Positions 14,401 to 41,400 of a stretch of DNA of 64,000 nucleotides are shown in pieces. Under the pieces are notes generated by a model that was not told where the DNA came from, searched no databases, and saw only the letters and a program-made list of their open reading frames with translations. Numbering within the stretch: the stretch's first letter is position 1; each line of letters starts with the position of its first letter. The translations under genes were made by a program, and so were the position numbers. This DNA comes from Panopea generosa (taxonomy: Eukaryota > Mollusca > Bivalvia > Adapedonta > Hiatellidae), in contig CM055899.1 of NCBI GenBank assembly GCA_029582155.1, positions 71,787,719 through 71,851,718 of the forward strand, given 5' to 3'.

Positions 14401-17400
14401 GATTAGTTTGCCACTGCATCCATATGTACATAGAACCAAATGCATTTATAATTGAACATTAAGTTGAAAACATAACGTTTTAGTTACAGGCAGTGTTTGT
14501 TAAGAGAAAAGCGAAATTTGTCGTTTAGTGTGACTGTTCAAACAAATAGTTTATCAAAAACGACTGCTGAATACAGTCTGAGTATGTGTAATAACAAATA
14601 TGTGAATATAGATAAAGTTTAAATTGCTTTTTATGCTTATTGACTGTATAAAACAACATGTAAAAAAAATAAAAGCGTAAATATTAATATGTATAAATAG
14701 ATTGGCTATTTATACTAATTTACTATTGGAATTCCGGTTTTAAAGCTGGTAAATCAAGAACGGTAACTCTGAAGTTCACTTCCGTATCTTTTGGTTACCA
14801 GATTCTCTATACTGGTATCAATTGCAGAAATAAAGGGTACCACACTTGATCGAGTTAGTTCTTTGAACGTAGTAGAATTGCCCAATGTATATATTATGTA
14901 TATATCGTTGAATTCATAAGTTTTCTGCACAATTATCATTTTGAAGATGTTTTTTTTAGATTCAATGGGAGCTTTGTATTAACTAAACATAGAGACGTAC
15001 AGCAATTAATTTCGTCTTCTCCACCGGTACAGTGATTGTGACCATCACACACGAAACGATAAGGTATACAGAAACTGCTTGGACATTTTAGATATCCGCT
15101 CATGTTTGAACAATTGTGTTGCTCTGAAAATTAAAATGACATTTACATTCTGAATATATCTAACTTCCTGTGTGGAAGGTATCATCCCGTTACTGTTTTA
15201 CATCGTTTTAACGTAAAATGAAAATACATATTTAACACTAAATTGTGCAGCTGCTCGCTTTACATTATTGTTATAATAAACACATTTTCAATATTGCATA
15301 CAATTATTTATCCGTTGTTTACATTATAAGTATGCGTTTTTCATTCCGCTCAAAATCAGAAATTCACGCCGCACCACAGGAGAATATAACGTCCAAATAT
15401 TGTATATTTCTACATGGACCAAGGGATACTGTTCATATATATACAGTTACTTATACTATATTGCCAAATACAGCTAATACTTACATTACGTATTATACGC
15501 GCTGGAAACATTTAAAATGCGAGTAAGGCAAAAGATTGTCAGCTGTTTTTACAAAAACAATGCATGAAAAAGAGTATACGAGAGTGTTTATACAAAGTAG
15601 GTGTATTTATATTATTTATTACTCTCATACATACATATATAATAGTATATATATTTCTAATTGTCAAATAAATGGGCCACTATAATATTGTTAAAATGGC
15701 TAAAGAAAAGTTATACATATTGCTGCCATAACACATAACGTTTAGATACAAGGATGTGCTACTTGCTACATTATAGAAATTAATCTCTTCAAACCGAGAA
15801 TATAACGTTCAAATATAAATCTATTGATCTTCCTACAAGGGACATTTATGTTCAAAAAGAACAAGTACAATAACTTGCTTTCAACTGACAGTCTGTTATG
15901 ATATTGCTGCAAGGGGACTGTGTACGTTCAAATAGTAATATAAAACAACAATAACAACAACAACAACAACCATTAGTATATATTGATACCAAGAAGCAGA
16001 GCTATAGATGCAACTGAGGATCATTAAGCTCAAATACAAAGTTGTGTATGTACATATAGCTACCATTGAACATAACGCTGCGCTCAAATACAAAGATGTG
16101 TATGTACATGTAGCTACCATGGAATATAACGCGGCGCTCAAATACAAAGTTGTATATGTACATGTAGCTACCATGGAACATAGCGCGGCGCTCAAATACA
16201 AATTTGTGTATGTACATGTAGCTACCATGGAACATAACGTGGCGCTCAAATACAAATTTGTACATGTACATGTAGCTATCATGGAACATAACGCGGCGTT
16301 TAAATACAGAGTTGCTACTAGGGATCTGTATGTTCAAAAATTGACATATGCTAGTAGGATCGTAAATGGTCTGCGTAGAAATATCAAGATATGAGATGTA
16401 ACAAGGGTTACTTCGTTGTGTTTGCATGTATATTTAGATATCTTGCTGCCAGGGGACGTTCCAATTGAATACAGAATTAGTAATCCTGATACCAATGAAC
16501 ATTACGCGGTGAGGAAATGTAGATATATGTATCCTTCCTACATGGGATATCATCTTGCAAGCATACAATACCACTTGCAAATGAAGAGATAGCAGTTAAA
16601 ACTATAGGTGTCTGTGTTTAAATATCTTTATTTGGATGTTACCAGCGAACCGTAAGTTCAAATATAAGAAACACAATGTTCAAATACAGAGTAAAATATC
16701 TTGTAACCAGGTAACAATATGTACAAATACAGAGTTAGGTGTAGTGTTACACGTGACCAGTATGCAGCGTTCAAAAACATTTTAAGGGATCATACTACAA
16801 ATGTACTTAACGTATAAATACATAGTTAGGTAATATGTGTGAACAGTTTGTTCAAATACAGACATAAGCATCGTATAACCAGTGACCCGACATGTCCTAT
16901 TACACGTTTTAATGAAGACTTCACTCAACGTTACATTGTAACCATTCGATTCTGTTAACAATTTTTTAAGATAAATATGGCATTTTGAATGCGCCTACAA
17001 ATTAGTATATAATTAGACAGACGGCTCAAGCTTACAATATGCCAACATTTTAGAGTTGGATGGATTGTATTGTCCGTTGTCATTATCAACACATGACATA
17101 TTCTTAAACAATACATATGTACCTAATATCTCTAAATTGGATGGTAGACATAATCAAGACTGAAACTGTCCGATATTTGCTATACAAAGTGTTTGAGAAA
17201 TGTAAACAACATATACCAATGCACTTACCACAACCCTCTAAATACGTAAGCGACTTACATCCATCAATTTTCCCAGACCTATCCAAATCATGAAAACAGC
17301 GTTTCCTCTCAGGTATAGTCTTCTGCTCTCGTTCACAAGCCATTGTTCTTTCTGTTGGAATTTCATATTCTAAAATATTCATAATAAAATGAATGTTATA

Positions 17401-20400
17401 TAAATAAAAAAAATTATTTTATTAAAAGTATTAATACTATCTAAAAATATCTCAGCCGCGATGAGTTGATTACGTCATAGTGAAAGAAGAAGGCGACAGA
17501 CGCGTATAAAAGGTGTAATTGGAATGGAATTCCGGTATCAAGTACAAATTGATTCCTCGTACATTGGCAAGAAATATGATTTCTGGTGTATATAATAAAT
17601 ATATATAATTATGTGCTTATTTTAATCTGAACACGCAGAAACAATCGTGTTAATTTTGTTTGTTTGACTATTTTATGTCATCAAGGGCTAAGAGACGACC
17701 AAACTACTCTTTCCCGGGCTCCAGTATTCGAGTACATTGAGTACCAGTTTTTTCTTTTAAACAAACAATATTCATTTCATGTTAAAGACAAATTCAACAG
17801 AAAACAATGTGAATGAGAGATGCTATATTATGGTTACTGCATATTTATTTTATGCGCATGATAATAAACACTCAAGACACATCAATGGAGAGTATGGTCT
17901 TACGTTAGATATATTTTATACCAAACATTTTGAAATGGGGTTGGCCACATTTCTTTCAACTTAAATTCGGCATTCCACCTAACTTACCTTACTTACCTTT
18001 CTTACATATAATGGACTCAAAACTAAATCGCGTATTGCCATATGTTGGCAATGTATTGAGAATAAAGTTGTTTTCATTGAAGTAGCATGTACCGTTAACC
18101 AACAGTTTTACGCCAGTCACTTCATTTGTGTAATATTGGCAGGTCACATTTGTTCTAAAAATAGAAAAAATATATAGAAATACTTTAAAGTTGTGTTAAT
18201 GATAAAAACAATGAATGCATCTCTCAGTCTAGTTTATACTAAAATATTTTGATTCGATGGAGAAGGAAACTAGGAGGTTATATGAACCGCACTCGATACG
18301 TTGAATATGAATATGTCAGAGACTCGTGCACGAATATAAGTAACTTCAGGTCCTTGTTGTAGTTTCTGGTGGCACATTTAATGTTTCCAAATACTACAAA
18401 CATAACACCTATAAATGACATAATTTATTATTTTAAAAAGAAAGAGCTTGTTTATAAGTTTATAAGTTGAGATTTTAAACAAATAAAGTTGTATACACAC
18501 ACTTTTGTTGAAATGTTCTAATTTATGAATAAATAGCTTAACACGTGATGTTTTTTTGTTATCTAGTATGTAAAATATCGAATATTTCAATGACACATGG
18601 ACAAAATTCCACATGATAAAACAAAACAGTGACATCAATAATGGTTATAGTATTGATAATGTCTTTATTTAGAGATGACATTTTTAATGGAGTTTAACGC
18701 TATTTTAAACACATTTCAGGTCATATATGGCATATCCAGTTTTACTGGTAGGGGAAGACCTCAGACTGAGTAGAACAACCGTCCTTCGCAAGAATATGGA
18801 AACTTCCTCAAATAAAGTTTTTGCGGCGAGCGGGACTCGAACCTACGAGGAAAGTGATCTTGAGACGACGCCTTAGACCACTCGGCCACGGAGAACGCCT
18901 AGAGAAGGTAAAGTTATATAAATCAGCGAGACCCTCTGAACAACACATCAAATAAACAATTATATTCTCTACAATATCTTTTACGTTATATACACATACA
19001 AACGATTGTAAGAACGAAATGAACAATTATGTTTTACGTTATAGACACATGCAAACGACTGTGAGAATGAAATGGACAATTATGTTTTACGTTATAGACA
19101 AATACAAACGACTGAAAGAATGAAATGATCAATTATGTTTTACGTTATGTATATAGACAAGTGATTGTAAGAATGAAATGAACAATCATGTTTTACGTTA
19201 TAGATATGTACAAACGATGGTAAGAATGAAATGAACAATTATGTTTTACATAATTGATATAAATAAAATATTGAAAGAATGAAATGAACAATATGTTTTA
19301 CGTTAAAGCATTTACAAACGATTGTAAGAAAGGAATGAACAATTATGCTTTACATTATAGACATATTCAAACGCGAGTAAGAATGAAATGATGATCAATT
19401 ATATTTTATGTTATAGACAATACAAATGCTAATTCCTATTGATTACAAAATGCTGATAATTTTCATCTGATATTAAATCGAGTGCAGAAATTGAAATATT
19501 GCACTGCTACTTTGACATGATTTACAACTATCTTTAAAACATATTTTAAAGGCTTAAAAAAGACCGATTTATTTACTTTCACACATTTTTACACACAGTT
19601 TATATGTACATATTTTCGAATGCTGTCACTGTGTTAAATGTTTTTAAATTTCCTCCGACATAGAATAACAGAAAATAAAACAATTCGGTTAAATGTTTGA
19701 AACCTCCGGACTTTTTTTATTATTGAAACTTACGTCCCAAAATCATATAAGTCTGCAATCGCAGTGTAACCGAGACATTCACTAAAGCTTATTCCCTCAT
19801 ATGCTCCGTCATGTTGTGCTACTTCCATCATATCAGGTGTACAAGTCACCGACACCTATATATGACATAGGTTCGTGTTAGAAAACAATATAATGGTATT
19901 AAGTATAACACATCCTTAAATAATGTTATGCATAGATCCGTTCAGGTACTGAACAGCTAACCATTATTGACGAAGATATTTCAAAAATGCAAAAGTGACG
20001 GGTTAGCTGTACCACTTAGTATATTAACGTAGCATAAACGACGAATCAAAACAAACAAGATAATAAACATTCAATTGAGAATATAGTGTGTCTTTATTAT
20101 AAAAATGTTATCTTAATATACAGAACGGAACATCTAACATTTATGTACCTGACGTTTTAAGCATTTTCTGAAAAAGTATCAAAGCAATTTCTTTGAAATT
20201 TGGAAATGTATAAGAAAGAACATTATGGCTATGTAAAAATACATGCTTGTATGTTAATGCCGTATATAAATTTTAAAAGCGCCACTCCATATTTTGGTGA
20301 AGATATTGGAAATACAGAAGTGGCGGGTTAGCTGTTTCGTTCAGTATATCAAAAATGTTTCTTAATTTAGCATTTGACACAAATACACACCTATTTGAAA

Positions 20401-29400: not shown

Positions 29401-32400
29401 CAACTGTTAAAAACAAATATAAACATTTATTTAGTATTACAATTCATTAAGTCGTTACGAGCAGCCTCTGGAGGTATTTCTGTTGTTGATGTTTCACAGA
29501 TGTAGTACGCAGCTGATCCAATTCCCGTGGTGGAGCATCCTTCTGATTCCCAAGTATTTTCTTTATTTCGTAGGTCAAGTCTCAACCGTGTACACCGTCT
29601 TCCTTGAACATCAGCTGGCTCTAGGTGATTCCTTTTGCAACAAAATATGTTTGTTATTTATATGGATTAAAATAAAATAAAAAATTTCTGTTGCTGTGGC
29701 AAACGTTATGCCGATATGTGAAGAGCGAATGATATTTAATTTCTGTTAGTTAAATTGAATAACTTTAAGCTAACATGTTCAATTTGTAAAGTTCATTTCA
29801 TTGACTGTTAACATAACACTATCGCCTCTTTATGTGCGATATGTATATTATCATGATAACACTCAACATGAAATTCCACAACAACCATCATAATTATCAC
29901 ATGTTTATCTCCTATCGTACCTTATCTTTATGTGCGATATGTATATTATAATGATCACACTCAACATGAAGTTCCACCACAGCCATCATAATTGTCACAT
30001 GGTAATCTCTTATCGTACCTTATCTTTATGTGCGGTATGTATATTATAATGATCACACTCACCATGAAATTCCACGACAGCCATCATAATTATCACATGG
30101 TAATCTCCTATCGTACCTTATCTTTATGTGCGATATGTATATTATAATGGTCACACTCAACATGAAATTCCACAACAGCTATCATAATTATCACATGGTA
30201 ATCTCTTATCGTACCTTATCTTTATGTGCGATATGTATATTATAATGATCACACTCAACATGAAATTCCACGACAGCCATCATAATTATCACATGGTAAT
30301 CTCCTATCATACCTTATCTTTATGTGCGATATGTTTATTATAATTGTTACACTCAACATGAAATTCTACAATAGTCATCATAATTATCACATGGTAATCT
30401 CTTATCGTACCTTATCTTTATGTGCGGTATGTATATTATAATGGTCACACTCAACATGAAATTCCACGACAGCCATCATAATTATCACATGTTTATCTCC
30501 TATCGTACCTTATCTTTATGTGCGATATGTATATTATAATGATCACACTCAACATGAAATTCCACAACAGCCATCATAGTTATCACATGGTAATCTCTTA
30601 TCGTACATTATCTTTATGTGCGATATGTATATTATAATGATCACACTCAACATGAAATTCCACGACAGCCATCATAGTTATCACATTGTAATCTCCTATC
30701 GTACCTTATCTTTATGTGCGATATGTATATTATAATGGTCACACTCAACATGAAATTCCACAACAGCCATCATAGTTATCACATGTTTATCTCCTATCGT
30801 ACCTTATCTTTATGTGCGATATGTATATTATAATGGTCACACTCAACATGAAATTCCACGACAGCCATCATAATTATCACATGATTATCTCCTATCGTAC
30901 CTTATCTTTATGTGCGATATGTATATTATAATGGACACACTCAACATGAAATTCCACAAAAGCCATCATAATTATCACATGGTAATCTCCTATCGCACTT
31001 TATCTTTATGTGCGATATGTATTTTATAATGGTCACACTCAACATGAAATTCCACGACAGCCATCATAATTATCACATGATTATCTCCTATCGCACTTTA
31101 TCTTTATGTGCGATATGTATTTTATAATGGTCACACTCAACATGAAATTCCAAAACAACCATCATAATTATCACATGGTAATCTCCTTCATTTCAATAAC
31201 ACAATATATAAAAAGCGTACGTAAACTACAATGATTTATAAGAAAAAATAATTAATCAATACATATTTGAAACATAGATTTACCATGCGGTGAACGTAAG
31301 AGGACTTCCGTCATTCCACATTTCTCTCAATATCCCATCAGTGTCAATGTACCGGCTAAGACCTTGAACCACAAAATGTGCATAAACTATAGATATAGCA
31401 ATTGATTTGAAGCATTTTATGATATTGGGGCTTAAATATGAGTGCATGTGTTATATAAAGTTAGCCGCCAATGCTGCAGGATGTGGGTTCGATTCTATGC
31501 TCGAGGCGATGGTCTTCCAAATACCAACATACAGCACAGGTTCTGTACTGGAAATAGATTCGAGAGCTTACTTTGCAAACGAGTTCAAATAAGTTATTAC
31601 AACTAAATGAAACACATAAAAACACATGTCTAAACAACCGCCATTATAGTCTAGATGACGCAAAAAACAGTATGTGTTTTATATAGGATATCACGGTGGA
31701 TATACCAGTGAACAAGTCATAAACATTGTGCGTCTAATCGAAATACTGATTTTTATGTTTTTGAATACCGGTAAAGCATTACGTTAACAATTTACACATT
31801 ATGTGAGTTGTGAAAAGTGTGCTGTTTATAACAGACTTATATATCAGAATGTTCATATATTTCCATCGTTATTACTTTTATATACTATAAACTGTTCATC
31901 GGACATGCATATCTTCCAACAAGGGGATAATAGCTTCAACGTGTAATGAAGAGGAATAAACCTATGTATTTCTGATGTTGCATGATGTTTAGTGTCGCTT
32001 TCAACATTTCTACTTGCGACAGGTTTCTAAACACTGACACAATTGAATAGTATGTCTCAGACACATGGTATGCTACCTCACCAAGTAACATTATGTGGAC
32101 ATCAGACATATAACTTTCATCTAAATGCTGAGCGGCAAGCCAGGAATCTTCTAGTACTATTTTTAAAGTGTTTGGTATGAGCCGGTCGGGATCAAACCTA
32201 AGAAATTCCGCAGACGAGGCGGACACTCTACCACTAGACAACCGTTGCGGTTTATGTATTTCTGGGTGAAATTCATTAGTTTGCAGATGTTTAAAGCAAA
32301 CAATACCTGAAAAATTGGCCATCATTACCAAATGTGGAAAATAGCATCATAATATAAAAACATTTTAAATTCAATGAAATAATCTATTCTAACGTAACAA

Positions 32401-35400
32401 TTATTAATTGTTTGAAAATGGATACAATTTAATAGATGCAATAAAATGATAAATACAATTAAATTTTTAATTTACTTGCCAGTAAATCAACTCCATTCAT
32501 TCCAGCAAAAATACGATAAATATCACACGGTATAAGCATACATGTTTACCTATGTGTACATATAAATCCGGGTCAATATTTGGAATTTGGAAGTAAGCAA
32601 AGTATTCCTCTGGAAATGCTTTCAATTTATATTTTACAAAGTTGTCTATTAATATTCTAAGGAAACGCAGCTCATATCTTGAGTGTATAGTAACAAGATG
32701 CATATCACGTGATTCACAATCCTTCCTGGATGCTTCCCAGCTGGTATCCGTCTTGAACGATGATGCGTATATGAAATAACATTGTTGTAGTTTCTCAGAA
32801 CACGCTGAAACGGTAAGCAGTGAATATTGATCTGTTCTAACAAAGATATAATATAAATTACAAAAGTTATAATTATAAATCTTTATATTTAGACTAAAAA
32901 GAGTAATATATTTAATAACTAGCCTCCTTTATATGTGTGTGACAAAATATATATTTACGTGGCCTTTATTATCGGTGTCAGCAAGTAAAAGGTTATTCGT
33001 ATTGTATATACAACATAAGAGAAAGTAGTGCATTCAATTTCTGTTTTATTGAACTTATCACTAGACATATAGCGTTATTTTATATTATTCATTTATGGTA
33101 TTTATAATAAGTCATTTTGACGTTTAGTTCATAACAAATTGTTAAGTTTTAATGATTTTAGAAAATTTAAACGGGTTTAAGTTTGTAACAACTGCTATTT
33201 GAAGTCTGAAAATAATTTGTTTCATGCTTAGCTGAGAATATTCACGTTTATTGATTCCTTACATGTAGTACATGGCAAATATTTGGCTATATATTATAAG
33301 GTGAGATGATATTCTGGGTCAGTTTTGCAATATAGCACCATGTCAAGGATACGCCATAACAAGTTGTAGTCAGCGTTTGAACGGTACCACTACATGCGGT
33401 ATATTAGTAAGTTCTTATTATATTATGTTTTTCTATAGCTTATTAATGTTTGATGGCGAAATTTCTGCAGAATCGGATGTAAATTATTTTTGTATAGGCA
33501 CAAATTATCAATTTCTATTCATAGCCGAGGTATTGAGAGTTGTTTTATTATAGGATTAAATTATTTTTTTCTGTTTTTTATGCATGTGTAAAGGAAGTCG
33601 AATCACGCACAAATCAAATAAAGTCCGACTTTATGTTCTGAACTTCAACTACATGTACATGTTTTTATTTCATTTTTCCTGTCGAATAAATTGGTCTGTG
33701 TAAATGTTTGTCCACGTTCGGTAAACCAATGGTACAATTGTTCAATGGTACACTATACATCTCAAATCGGAACATTTTATGACCTACTTCATTGTTTCTC
33801 AAACAACTTATGGTCTGATTGTGACGCCCGGTTAAATCGCTGAACCAAAGATATCTTTAAAACAATAAACCGAAGAAAACAGCTAGGACTAGATCTAACA
33901 TTTGTTTTTGTTGTATTTTATTATTAAAATAAGCGTTGAACCGTTGTGCACGTCATTTAAGTTCATATGTTGTTAAACCGACCATTAAAATGTCGATTCT
34001 TCTTTGTTTACGCGAGAAACGTAAAAGTAGTCCGGCTCCAGGGTTTTATCGAAAAATAAAGTCTTTAAAAATTGACGTTGTCCAATGAAAATGCTTTAAA
34101 TACATATATATGATAATGAGATTGGAATAATTAGCGCGTAGGTCGAGGAATCTAGAAGCATATTTTTATGTTGTATATATTGTATGGTTGATAGTGTAAT
34201 GAACTTTTAGATAAATGGAGAGCATTTTAGAGATATATGATATATAGAATTCATTTGAAATCTGTCATTGTTTAATTTTTATAAATTTTGGTACTATGTT
34301 AAGTCGAAAGCAAATGTTGTAATACACATAATTAAAGTACTGTTTATAGAGAAGTATTTTCTACCACGAGACTGATAGAAGGTAATAAATGAATGTACTG
34401 TTATTACGTACTGATAAAACTACCATGGAACTGATTGATGGAAAGGAATAAATGTACTGTTATTACATATTGATAAAACTACCATGGAACTGATAGATGA
34501 AAAGGAATAAATGTATTGTTATTACATATTGATAAAACAACCATGGAACTGATAGATGGTAAAGCATAAATGTATTGTTATCACATGTTGATAAAATTAC
34601 CATTGAACTAGTAGATGGTAAGGAATAATTGTATTGCTATTACATAATGATAAACTTACCATGGAACTGATATTTGGTAAGGAATAAATGAATTGTTATT
34701 ACATATTGATAAAACTACCATGGAACTGATATATGGTAAGGAATAAATGTATTGTTATTGCATATTAGGTACTAGTAACTGGTAAATCTGACTATATATA
34801 TATAGCCGTTTCTGTGTATGTGTTACGAGGGTCCACAACAGTAACAACGATCCAGGAGTCATCCGGTGGTACTACCGTCATATGAACGAGTTACCCATAT
34901 ACTAGTTATATGGACGACTTTACGATTCCGACGTCATAGTGCAGGGGCGCGATTCACTGTCGACACAAGGGACGACTGGACATATATCTACGAATACACT
35001 TGTAGTGTTAACAATAGTTTAAACTTCGTGAGAACATTAATAAACAGATGTTTTTGGTTGTTGAGTAAAATTATTGTATTTCTCTATAGTGTATGAATGT
35101 ATTTTCGTAATTTTATTTAAGCGAAAATAAAATTGTAAATTTTGATTTGAGTATATATATATTATATTATACCTTAATTAGTCGACCCTTTGGCGTTTTG
35201 TCATAATGTGACGTAATGATTTTAATAAAAAGAAAAACTCATTCAATCGGAATTCATTTTGATGTTTACCTTATTTTACAGAAAATGATGTATGTAATCG
35301 ATACGATTACTCTTTACTCCATGTGCATTTTAACCAGACCCTTCCAAACTCAAAAGCCACAGGTAGTCAATTTCAATAGTCATGAATAGATACATTTTAC

Positions 35401-38400
35401 CTATTTATTCTGATAGAGCAGGAAACAGTGTAGAACCTGTTCTGATTGCTCGAGCAACCAGAACTGGTTCTAATCTGTTTTCAAAAGCCTTCTATATTAG
35501 AGGTGTTCAAAGGTGTCCATATGAAGTAAAGGGTTAAAGCTAGTACTGGTTTTGTCAGTATAGCTTAAAATAACTTTTATAATAAAAAAAATCAAAACTT
35601 AAATTACCTTCTTGGTATTCGAACTTAGCGCCACTTCCGGTTGAAACAACAGCTGTATGCAATAATAATGTATTAGAACAATTCAGTATGCAATATTAGT
35701 GTATGCTTTTGCAATGTTATTATGCAATATGAGAAAGAGAAGTATGATATTTTAATCAAATATGATACAAAAAATTGAATTTTTTCACGGATTGACTGAA
35801 TGTTATTAAATGATTTAAAATAAGTAAACAATATATTATTTTAATTTACCACGGTTTAATACGACAAATAAGGTTAAATCATGTTTCGTTGTTTATGGAT
35901 AGATGATTCGATGGATGAATGGACAGTGGATGGACAGTCGATGTATAGATGGATGGATGAATGGTTGAATAGATGATAAAACATTATATGTTTAAGTTAC
36001 TAAGAAATATCGAATATTGTATATCATGAACAGACTAAATAAAAAACGAGTCTGCTTTTTTATTCTGTTGCGTTACGTGTTTCCTAGAGATCTATTTTAT
36101 ACAAATTTTTGCAACAAGCTATTATGCAAATAAGACATATACAGTATACATCAATACTTGAACGTTGTATTTGGTAATGAAATAAAATAACCAGAAATTG
36201 TATAATATTAACGCAATTTAAAATAAAGTATATTAATGTAATGTTTAGCATATAGTGTGACTGTGATATTCCCCGTTATTGCTGATAATAGAATTAGACA
36301 TGACCTGTGGAATAACGTCAATGGTTTGTTCTATCCTATCTCGACATTAAACGTTCAGGAAATCCCGGACATTATCAGTTAAAATGGAAACAGACAAAAA
36401 GCAATTGAAGAAGTTTGTGTCAAATCAATAAAGTTTATATCATCATATCGCATTTCCTTTTAACAAAATAATAACATAAAATGAAAGGATGCTATCGAAA
36501 CTTTCTTCAGTTGCTCCCATATGTAACTTCAATTTAATAGGAATCTAAAGCAGGTTATAAGTACATCTGTGGTAAACCTCATGGACAGACTTAGACAGTA
36601 AGAGAGATAAATATTACAGAAAATAGTGGTTATCATGAAAAATTAGTATTTGGACTATTTACTCTCTAAAGGTCTACGAAATTAATTATGGAACAATAAT
36701 TTTAAAACAATGTACATACTGGTTATATTTGGAGTAGTTTCTAGAACCAGTTCATCCTTCAATGAAAATTTGTATGATGCCCGAAATCCTTCAAAGAAAT
36801 TATTATGCTGTTGTGTATATTCCAAAATTATATGGTTGTATGTTGAATGGTATCTGCGCAAAGGCCTCTTATTATTGCAAGGTTGCATAACTCCTTTACC
36901 GTCTCTGAATAAATCGCCAATTTGTAGCTGTGATCCTTTTACATGAAATGTAATAACGTAAATATATATAACAGTTATTATGTTATAGATAAGCCAGCAT
37001 GGCAATAATTGTACCTGAACAAAACACAAACATGAACCTTCTGTCTTTATTCATTCGTTAATATTTTTAGTATAAACTTAATTAAAATTAATCCCCTTTT
37101 GTTTCGAGTGAATAAAACATAAGAAACAATACCCTATATATCCAGCAAAAGAATAACTATTGAATCAATCACCGCACAATTACTTGTCTTAATGCATATC
37201 TTACAATCATCACAAACACCATCAAACTTTGTATCCGCCAAGACAAATGTTACAATTCATATTTTACCTTCTACACATACACCTTCAAAATTTGTATCCG
37301 TCAATATAATTTAAAAAATGCATAATTTTATCTTATCTTATCACAAACACCGTGAAACTTTGTATCCGCAAAGACAATTGTTACAATGTATATCTTACCT
37401 TCACCACACATACCGTCAAACTTTGTATCCGCCAAGACAATTGTTACAATGTATATCTTACCTTCACCACTCATACCATCAAACTGTCTTTGTATCCGCC
37501 AAGACAATTGTTACAATGCATATCTTACCTTCGACACACAACCCGTCAAACTTTGTATCAGCCAAGACAATTGTTACATTGTATATCTTACCTTCACCAC
37601 TCATACCGTCAAACTTTGTATCCGCAAAGACAATTGTTACAATGCATATCTTACCTCACCACACACACCGTCAAACTTTGTATCCACCAAGACAATTGTT
37701 ACAATACTTATCTTACCTTCACCACACAAACCGTCAAACTTTGTATCCACCAAGACAATTGTTACAATGCATATCTTATCTTCATCACACGTACCGTCAA
37801 ACTTTGTATCAGCCAAGACAATTGTTACATTGTATATCTTACCTTCACCATTCATACCGTCAAACTTCGTATCCGCCAAGACAATTGTTACAATGCATAT
37901 CTTACCTTCACCACACAAGCCGTCAAACTTTGTATCAGCCAAGACAATTGTTACATTGTATATCTTACCTTCACCACTCATACCGTCAAACTTTGTATCC
38001 GCAAAGACAATTGTTACAATGCATATCTTACCTCACCACACACACCGTCAAACTTTGTATCCACCAAGACAATTGTTACAATACTTATCTTACCTTCACC
38101 ACACAAACCGTCAAACTTTGTATCCACCAAGACAATTGTTACAATGCATATCTTATCTTCATCACACGTACCGTCAAACTTTGTATCAGCCAAGACAATT
38201 GTTACATTGTATATCTTACCTTCACCACTCAAACCGTCAAGATTTGTATCCACCAAGACAATTGTTACATTGTATATATTACCTTCACCACACATACCGT
38301 CAAACTTTGTATCCACCAAGACAATTGTTACATTGTATATCTTACCTTCACCACACATACCGTCAAACTTTGTATCCACCAAGACAATTGTTACATTGTA

Positions 38401-41400
38401 TATCTTACCTTCACCACAAACACCGTCAAACGTTGTATCAACCAAGACAATTGTTACAATGCATATCTTACCTTCACAACACATACCGTCAAACTTTGTA
38501 TCCACCAAGACAATTGTTACATTGTATATCTTACTTTCACCACTCATACCGTCAAACTTTGTATCCGCCAAGACAATTGTTACATTGTATATCTTACTTT
38601 CACCACACAAGCCGTCAAACTTTGTATCCGCCAAGACAACTGTTACATTGCATATCTTACCTTCACCACTCATACCGTCAAACTTTGTATCCGCCAAGAC
38701 AATTGTTACATTGTATATCTTACCTTCACCACACAAGCCGTCAAACTTTGTATCAGCCAAGACAATTGTAACAATGCATATCTTACCTTCACCACAAACA
38801 CCGTCAAACTTTGTATCCACCAAGACCATTGTTACATTGTATATCTTACCTTCAACACTCATACCGTCAAACTTTGTATCCGACAAAACAATTGTTACAA
38901 TGCATATCTTACCTTCACCACAAACACCGTCAAACTTTGTATCCGCCAAGACAATTGTTACATTGTATATCTTACCTTCACCACGCACACCGTCAAACTT
39001 TGTATCAGCCAAGACAATTGTTACATTGTATATCTTACCTTCACCACACACACCGTCAAACTTTGCATCCGCCAAAACAATTGTTACAATGCATATCTTA
39101 CCTCTATCACACACACTGTCAAACTTTGTATCCGCCAAGACAATTGTTACAATGCATATCTTAGCTTCATCTCACACACCGTCAAACTTTGTATCAGCCG
39201 AGACATTTGTTACAATGCATATCTTACCTTTACCACTCATACCGTCAAACTTTGTATCTGCCGAGATATTTGTTACAATGCATATCTTACCTTCACCACT
39301 CACACAGTCAAACTTTGTATCTGCCGAGATAATTGTTACAATGCATATTTCATCACACACAGCATCATAATCTATAACTAAAACACAATTGTAACAATAC
39401 GTTTCTTTCAAAATTCCTAACATCAAACTCCATAACCGCAAACACAACTGGACTGTATCACTCATTTACCGTCAAACTATTGTTACAAAAACTATCTTAC
39501 CTTTTACCCTACTGATAACCACCTTAACATTTGTACCAATTGAAATCATCTTGTCGTACTAGGTCTCACTTAAGAATTACCTCCCTTACAAGAGTTTCTA
39601 ACGTCCAAGAAATTAGAGATGTGTAAAGCGGTTGGGCAATGTTTTCGTTAAAAATGCATAAAATGTCATATTTCTTCGTGCATATGGGAACATTGGAACA
39701 TTTTCATGATTTTCGCCAAGTTTGGATGACATTGGGAACTGTTCGATGAAGTTATAACAGTTTAAATATGTGTAGTGATACACTGCAACAAATGGGCGGA
39801 ATTGTCAAAATTGAAGGGGTGCCATCAAACCATCAGAATTGTGAAAAAGCAGCCTGGTCAACACCATGTTTTTTTCTGTATAATTGTACCAACAGAGGAC
39901 TAACTTTTGGAACAAGGACTTTTTAGAACCATCAGTAATGCATCAAGTGTTTTAGAAGTGCATGTCTATTTCTACAGTACAAAATTATTTATTGTTCTAG
40001 ACGTATCATATACAAAGTCAAACACCATAACCATAAGCAAATTTAACATTAAAACTATAACGTAACCTAACACAATGTCCTACTCAACACTGATCAAACC
40101 AATTGTAACAATGTACACATACATGAAACCTTTGTCACAATATACAGCAAATTTTGTAACCGCCAACACAAGTGTAACAATATTATTTAATAATGAATAC
40201 CATTACGCCAATACAACATTAAATTCGATAACTAACGACTCAGTTATAACTACACAATGCATATGTTCCATTCATCACACTTAACAGCACTATAATGCAA
40301 TTGTATCTGTATTACAAACATCATCGAACTCAACAATCGCCACTATAATTCTATGAGTACAATGCATATCTCTCGTTTGTCACACTGAATACTAAACATC
40401 CTAATTGCAACACTGAATATCGTGTTGTAAGTGCGATGTGCATATTATAATAGTCACTCTCAACATAACATTCCATAAATATGCATTAAATTTCATAATC
40501 GCCAACACACATATATAACAATGCAAGTCTTACAATTTTAACATTCAACATCTAATTTCATAACTGCCAAATATAATTGTATCAATGGTATCTTACCTAT
40601 TCACATACACCATCACTCCATATACACCAAAGTTTTCAAATATATAAGTTACCTTTTTCACACGAAATATCGAACTCCGTAATCGTCAACACAATTGGTA
40701 GGGTATCATATCCCTCTATTATCCACAATTGAATATTTTCTCTAGCTGAATCGTCCGCCATCAGATTTCCGGCATGGTAAAATGAATTCGAAGCCAAAGT
40801 CATCATTGGCATATCACAGATAGCTTTATCGCCGTAGAACGAAAAGCAATTTGGAATCACTGCAATGGGAGAAGTCGTAGTCTTTTATTGAATGTTGGAC
40901 AGAATCATAAAACTTTTTTTCAGACTTGAAACATAGAAAATATAAATATCGATTCAATCTTGATGAATATTTCATATTTACACATATGCCATTTTGGAGT
41001 GCCTGGTATATAAGTGGCAAACATGTATTGATTATCAATGCATGTAGAAAAAATCTTGTTCCATTTTTTTAAAAAATGAAGATGCCGGATAAATGATTTA
41101 TTTACACTGTAGTCTATTAAGTTTCTGCAGACTTACATTCAATGGGTTCAATAAATTATTGAATTAATTATAGAAGTAAATTATCACACATAAAAAAACC
41201 AAATCAAATGTAATGTAATTTTAATGGTGTGATAATATAAACAAAGTGAAACGCGGGTCATTACTCCAGATATAAAGTAGGAAGCTAAGGAACTATATGA
41301 TTTGTATGAATTCCATGAACATTACTTGGATAATAACAAGTGGTGACGGTTACGTAAATTTGAGAATTTCTGGATTACATAGTTCACGTGCTTTGAAAGA

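Follow-up and report, generated by a model that had tools for sequence, protein, structure and literature searches.

A tandem array of 63-bp units fills 2.1 kb of the 3.7-kb intron between exons 16 and 17 of a minus-strand gene in the 64,000-nucleotide stretch of the Panopea generosa genome analysed here (C6:71787719-71851718, hereafter the window). Very probably this array is a neutral minisatellite born across an exon boundary, a so-called mirage, which is large and old, is shared by paralogous genes, and whose many decoy donors (5' splice sites) are passed over during splicing. The origin of its unit from the end of exon 16 together with the donor of that exon is strongly supported by sequence comparison. 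The domain architecture suggests that the host gene encodes a GRL101-like receptor. Coordinates of the features are collected in Table 1.

The array consists mainly of units of 63 bp (30 units), with two of 62 bp, one of 67 and one of 68, and was scored at 34.1 copies by Tandem Repeats Finder (TRF); an earlier sequence-only reading of the window had rightly seen tandem copies within this intron, but its count of about 33 falls one short of the actual 34. A run of four units occurs twice unchanged, at 37578-37828 and 37955-38205, evidently the trace of a recent unequal exchange or slippage. When the unit consensus was aligned to exon 16 at the donor without gaps, 30 of 45 exon columns were identical, and 34 of 50 when five intron bases were included, which is exactly the match that the sequence-only reading had reported. 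The next best of the 63 possible registers reached 18 columns and the best antisense register 17. Local alignment of the unit to the exon plus 10 intron bases gave a score of 21, attained by none of 20000 dinucleotide-shuffled units (maximum 19), so that the proposed kinship holds against shuffled controls; a further control, run on 300 bases with two kinds of shuffle, counted 0 of 5000 for either kind. Finally, 816 segments outside the array were scanned on both strands, and the top seven all lay on the minus strand, at exon 16 or in the region between exon and array, which we call the bridge.

Searches with the exon ends of the gene family, covering 231 kb around the four close gene copies (A, the window, and B-D), led back to the arrays. 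A profile was built from the exon-16 ends (54 exon and 10 intron bases) of six genes, these four and two distant paralogs, E and F, and contained no array letters. At an E-value ≤0.01 it found 163 places: the 4 exons, 156 places in the 63-bp arrays, 2 in the window bridge (39419-39452 and 40128-40174, the E-value of the matches being about 0.01) and 1 just beyond the edge of the copy C array (C6:10981559-10981594), none of them antisense. At an E-value ≤10 the number rose to 420, made up of 4 exons, 367 places in arrays, 1 edge, 21 in bridges, 24 in a second type of array with a 98-bp unit, and 3 antisense. A profile restricted to the array-free genes E and F still found 16 places at ≤0.01, namely the 4 exons, 11 places in the arrays of B-D and 1 in a bridge, the best window unit being weak (0.04). 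The profile of A-D found 61 (4 exons, 56 in arrays and 1 counted elsewhere). On reversed sequence (224 kb) the A-F, E-F and A-D profiles gave 8, 4 and 10 matches, with best E-values of 1.5, 2.2 and 0.4. Registers, shuffles and exon-only profiles together lead us to reject a chance resemblance of unit and exon.

To place the array in the genome (1.47 Gb in 39 contigs), exon 16 was used as a query. It matched 10 places at an E-value ≤1, eight of them below 1e-4, including the window's own. Proteins of the close copies B-D are 75-80% identical to that of A, and all four genes carry the 63-bp array in sense orientation between exons 16 and 17. TRF copy numbers are 34.1 in A, 110.2 in C, 57.7 plus 28.8 in D (about 86 units) and 178.6 in the part of the B array from 10803000 upwards (at least 179 units). 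The relatives that the sequence-only reading proposed to consult, here paralogs within the same genome, thus bear it out: the array stands behind exon 16 in four of four close copies and is found by profiles made of exons only. In the distant paralogs E (C6:24490085) and F (C6:65366895), copies are absent from the corresponding introns of 290 and 374 bp, and none was found in the 1.5-kb flanks to the left and right of the matches of the paralogs on C8 and C16. An 18-base core of the unit, allowing at most one mismatch, occurs 295 times in the whole genome (61 forward, 234 reverse), and 294 of these occurrences (60 + 234, as counted in extracted sequence) fall within the four paralog introns on the strand of the gene; the reversed core pattern matched once. 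An initial genome search with the array had returned A, C and D among the matches listed, and its counts are lower bounds. Given this near-complete confinement of the core to four introns, we reject a dispersed satellite.

The bridge ties the array to its exon and dates the copying. The sequence-only reading had described degenerate units linking exon and array, and the exon profile does match there, at the two places given above and more weakly elsewhere. The first 850 columns of the bridge are 84.5-96.2% identical among A-D, which indicates that copying had started before the four genes split. Ten exon positions set E and F, which share a base there, apart from the in-group. Scored at these positions, six exon-end copies of the bridge, taken from its consensus over the four genes, have the E/F base in most diagnostic cells (28 of 41), as against 7 cells with that of the in-group and 6 with another; the corresponding numbers for the 98-bp unit are 6, 1 and 1; the position that distinguishes GAT-GTT from GAT-ATT carries the E/F base in 8 of 8. 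These cells are not independent, and their polarity is set by two outgroups, E and F. Most simply read, the copies in the bridge retain older exon bases. The array itself was compared through a set of 298 units (34, 69, 110 and 85 from A-D, the B units all coming from the array's upper 4.4 kb). Mean unit identity is 0.82-0.88 within arrays and 0.84-0.86 between them, and the consensus units differ at 0-2 of 63 positions. Since units are as similar between genes as within them and their consensuses are nearly equal, a single array was probably present before the four-gene split and has mostly drifted since.

A second array, in a later intron, appears to be a daughter of the bridge. Its 98-bp unit matches the window bridge at 40377-40478 (E-value 3.6e-6), and the profile of outgroup exons E and F matches the array weakly (0.07 and up). 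A genome search places this array at four sites: copies A, C and D have it, and the fourth site, C6:10795190-10796066, lies about 5 kb beyond exon 17 of copy B. The same search also retrieves stretches of 45-48 bp, at 89-92% identity, from the bridges of copies B, C and D. The homology suggests that a decayed exon-16 copy seeded an array in another intron, the direction of the transfer being our interpretation. In a self-comparison covering eight arrays of the window, only those with 63- and 98-bp units led to exon-16-derived sequence, although such single-sequence searches may miss weak links.

These observations are best explained by the following course of events. A piece of about 63 bp, taking in some 47 bases from the end of exon 16 and 16 from the start of the intron, would have undergone head-to-tail duplication into the intron at a time when the four sister genes had not yet separated. 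The earliest copies would have decayed into the bridge, one lineage of units would have been amplified into the homogeneous 63-bp array, and a decayed copy would also have given rise to the 98-bp array downstream. Copy number may then have changed in either direction through slippage or unequal exchange. The sequence-only reading had invoked slippage seeded inside the exon: the origin in the exon end stands, whereas slippage is just one of several routes, unequal exchange fitting equally well. The decoy donors would be bypassed and the units would drift as neutral intron sequence; by the logic of exon definition, the true exon would still be selected because it alone has an acceptor and an exon body in front of its donor. 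An intron may thus grow by repeated copying of the end of the preceding exon, with the copies preserving a partial record of older exon bases, and a weak true donor followed by dozens or even hundreds of decoys would offer a natural test of splice-site choice.

The decoy donors do exist. The donor of the consensus unit pairs with the 5' end of U1 at -9.5 kcal/mol, compared with -6.5 for the true donors of A-E and -10.9 for that of F, so that the earlier claim of a unit donor better than the real AAAAG/gtaact (the slash marks the splice site) is correct in terms of U1 energy; by eye, both match 8 of 9 positions of the consensus MAG/GTRAGT. In 204 of 298 units, more than two thirds, the pairing with U1 is more favourable than that of the gene's own donor. 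It had also been stated that every unit ends in GAAG/gtaag, which holds for only 21 of the 34 window units, AGGTAAG being present in 25 and GT in 30. Counted over the whole unit set, 238 units have kept GT, 216 AGGT and 167 AGGTAAG. The nine donor columns have a conservation of 0.931, which ranks 24th among 63 circular windows and is not above that of the rest of the unit, and among 19 G columns those at +1 (0.83) and +5 (0.84) come fourth and fifth from the least conserved (ranks by eye). Maintenance of the donor sites by selection finds no support in these figures, nor do the consequences proposed in the sequence-only reading (altered splicing, delayed intron removal, binding of U1), and by analogy with known mirages the decoys are most likely ignored by splicing.

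Were the decoys functional, they might keep U1 bound over the length of the intron, so that splicing is delayed or the pre-mRNA protected against premature cleavage, a role for which the array would be maintained. The superior U1 pairing of most units is in line with such a role, as is retention of the array in all four close paralogs, in two of which the exon 16-17 intron measures about 39 and 45 kb. It is opposed by the unremarkable rank of the donor columns, by the poor conservation of the +1 and +5 G and by the loss of AGGTAAG from many units, and we regard it as improbable. Less credible still is a working splice ladder that would tune the joining of exons 16 and 17, array length setting the level of full-length receptor. 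Most AG/GT copies are stronger for U1 than the true donor, and array length varies at least fivefold among the sister receptor genes.

We give even less weight to the idea that the units act as dual-specific AG/GT sites, frame-keeping 63-nt pieces being sometimes spliced in or out, as in the ladder of the human polyubiquitin gene UBC. Such ladders are documented in UBC (PMC10809524), and in favour of the idea AGGT is found in most units, the unit length is a multiple of three (3 × 21), and an open frame of 385 amino acids runs through the window array. UBC units are coding, whereas those described here are intronic, decayed and placed behind a stop codon. The open frame exists because the 63-bp unit is stop-free. 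In-frame stops occur in 47 of the 298 units, and no codon-position signal was detected in the unit set (0.909, 0.902 and 0.924 at positions 1-3), which leads us to reject a coding array; four Pfam matches to the array peptide all lay under the cutoff and were judged spurious. Reading through the exon-16 donor meets the same TGA codon after five codons in all four close copies (by eye), so that splicing exon 16 from a decoy instead of its true donor would by itself truncate the protein. No clear pyrimidine tract was seen by eye before the AG.

Hardly tenable at all is the idea that the intron received an unrelated satellite or transposon whose likeness to the exon is fortuitous: the homogeneous array does lie 1.3 kb (A, D) or about 32 kb (B, C) from the exon, but the match falls exactly in the donor register on the coding strand, outgroup exons suffice to find the array, decayed copies connect it to the exon and the core is virtually restricted to four introns.

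Several observations nevertheless weigh against an exon-derived, neutral array. The 32-kb distance in B and C places the array next to exon 17. Identity of the units to the exon end is moderate, the best unit having an E-value of 2.3e-6 in copy B and 9.5e-5 in the window, and alignment of the exon alone with the unit scored 16, a value equalled by 7 of 20000 shuffled units. The units of one array are related, so the numbers of profile matches are not counts of independent events and overstate the evidence. In the diagnostic cells of the 63-bp unit, E/F and in-group bases are even (3 and 3 of 8, with 2 others). Purifying selection on the four genes could not be demonstrated from exon 16 in six pairs, and since nonsynonymous divergence (dN) exceeds synonymous divergence (dS) in all six, it is their open frames that argue for intact, used genes. 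Lastly, copy C has an exon 17 (C6:10974044-10974260) whose frame is interrupted, through either pseudogene formation or assembly error.

The name mirage was given to tandem repeats across exon-intron boundaries of amphioxus genes, which have been described in Adh3, troponin C, the globins BflGb6 and BflGb9, and PGBD5; reverse transcription PCR and Adh3 data suggest that splicing is undisturbed, and both 5' and 3' boundaries are involved (PMC3087553, PMC3902484). As there, the tandem units span an exon-intron boundary, adjoin their source exon and often retain AG/GT. The P. generosa arrays occupy the intron next to the source exon in the same orientation in four of four paralogs (about 32 kb in for B and C), and many, but not all, units keep AGGT. 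Change of copy number and turnover within the cluster are also shared, being seen here among paralogs and in the four-unit duplication. The globin mirages are small in the accounts at hand, with 6 and 3 units in two haplotypes of BflGb6 and one duplicate in BflGb9 (PMC3087553, PMC3902484), in contrast to the 34 to at least 179 units found here. Further differences from what these accounts report are the single origin shared by four paralogs, the decayed copies carrying older exon bases and the daughter array elsewhere. In the open-licence literature on tandem repeats over exon-intron boundaries, judged by titles and the opening lines of abstracts, amphioxus mirages were the only direct precedents found, and our data suggest that they are not peculiar to amphioxus. 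The Rogers model derives intron gain from tandem duplication of AGGT-bearing exon pieces (named in PMC3087553). Our case resembles it in starting from a tandem duplication that carries a splice signal and differs in that the intron was already there and lengthened, no new intron position being seen. The RdRp of potato is reportedly a case of intron gain by tandem duplication (PMC4974935).

Table 1. Positions of the exons, arrays and gene copies (window numbering for the first seven rows, C6 numbering for the others)
Feature	Position	Strand	Description	Basis
Exon 16	40653..40859	-	207 nt, ends in phase 1 (+ G); first half of CUB-like domain; probable source of the repeat	open frame and splice signals
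True donor of exon 16, AAAAG/GTAACT	40651..40652	-	U1 duplex -6.5 kcal/mol	
In-frame TGA	40636..40638	-	5 codons of read-through beyond the exon-16 donor	by eye
Bridge	39349..40650	-	putative decayed exon-end copies between exon 16 and homogeneous array	profile and alignment
63-bp array	37191..39339	-	34 units: about 47 bases of probable exon origin, then GTAAGATATGCATT-type intron bases	
Exon 17	36721..36935	-	second half of CUB-like domain	ends by eye
C-type-lectin-like exon piece; second intronic array behind it	31283..31366; 29827..31187	-	piece upstream of array in gene direction; array of 98-bp unit, 13.9 copies	motif; TRF
Copy A		-	the window	exon 16 search
Copy B	C6:10846557	-	array about 10801966 to 10814295; exon 17 at 10801495-10801283	exon 16 search
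Copy C	C6:11013149	-	array 10974515-10981494; exon 17 at 10974260	exon 16 search
Copy D	C6:50730387	+	array 50731931-50737405; exon 17 at 50737658	exon 16 search

The minus-strand exons of the window resemble pieces of CUB, PAN, C-type-lectin, LDLa, leucine-rich and seven-transmembrane domains. Pfam scans of gene pieces, which covered the parts other than the leucine-rich and seven-transmembrane ones, gave sub-cutoff matches alone: LDLa at 8.8e-5, lectin at 0.0025 and PAN at 0.011. For CUB, exons 16 and 17 joined reached an E-value of 0.0024 (18.6 bits, cutoff 21.4) and exons 14 and 15 one of 0.084. The exon piece upstream of the 98-bp array is presumably C-type-lectin-like, judging by its motif. 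Within this piece (31312-31349 in A, the window) and at the corresponding places in C and D, the profile of E and F gave very weak matches (E-values 2.2-9.5), probably by chance.

Other arrays lie nearby. Three in the window, at 34371-34766, 18971-19426 and 16028-16314 (units of 59, 53 and 54 bp), have counterparts in copy C, and no link to an exon was seen. In intron 16 of B and C there is an array of a 58-bp unit (C6:10824161-10829313 and 10991840-10995614), with none reported in A or D at a TRF score of at least 200. As for the coding sequence, dN is greater than dS in exon 16 in every comparison of copies A-D (for example 0.140 against 0.076 for A-B; the sites are few), a hint that selection on this receptor family is diversifying or has been relaxed.

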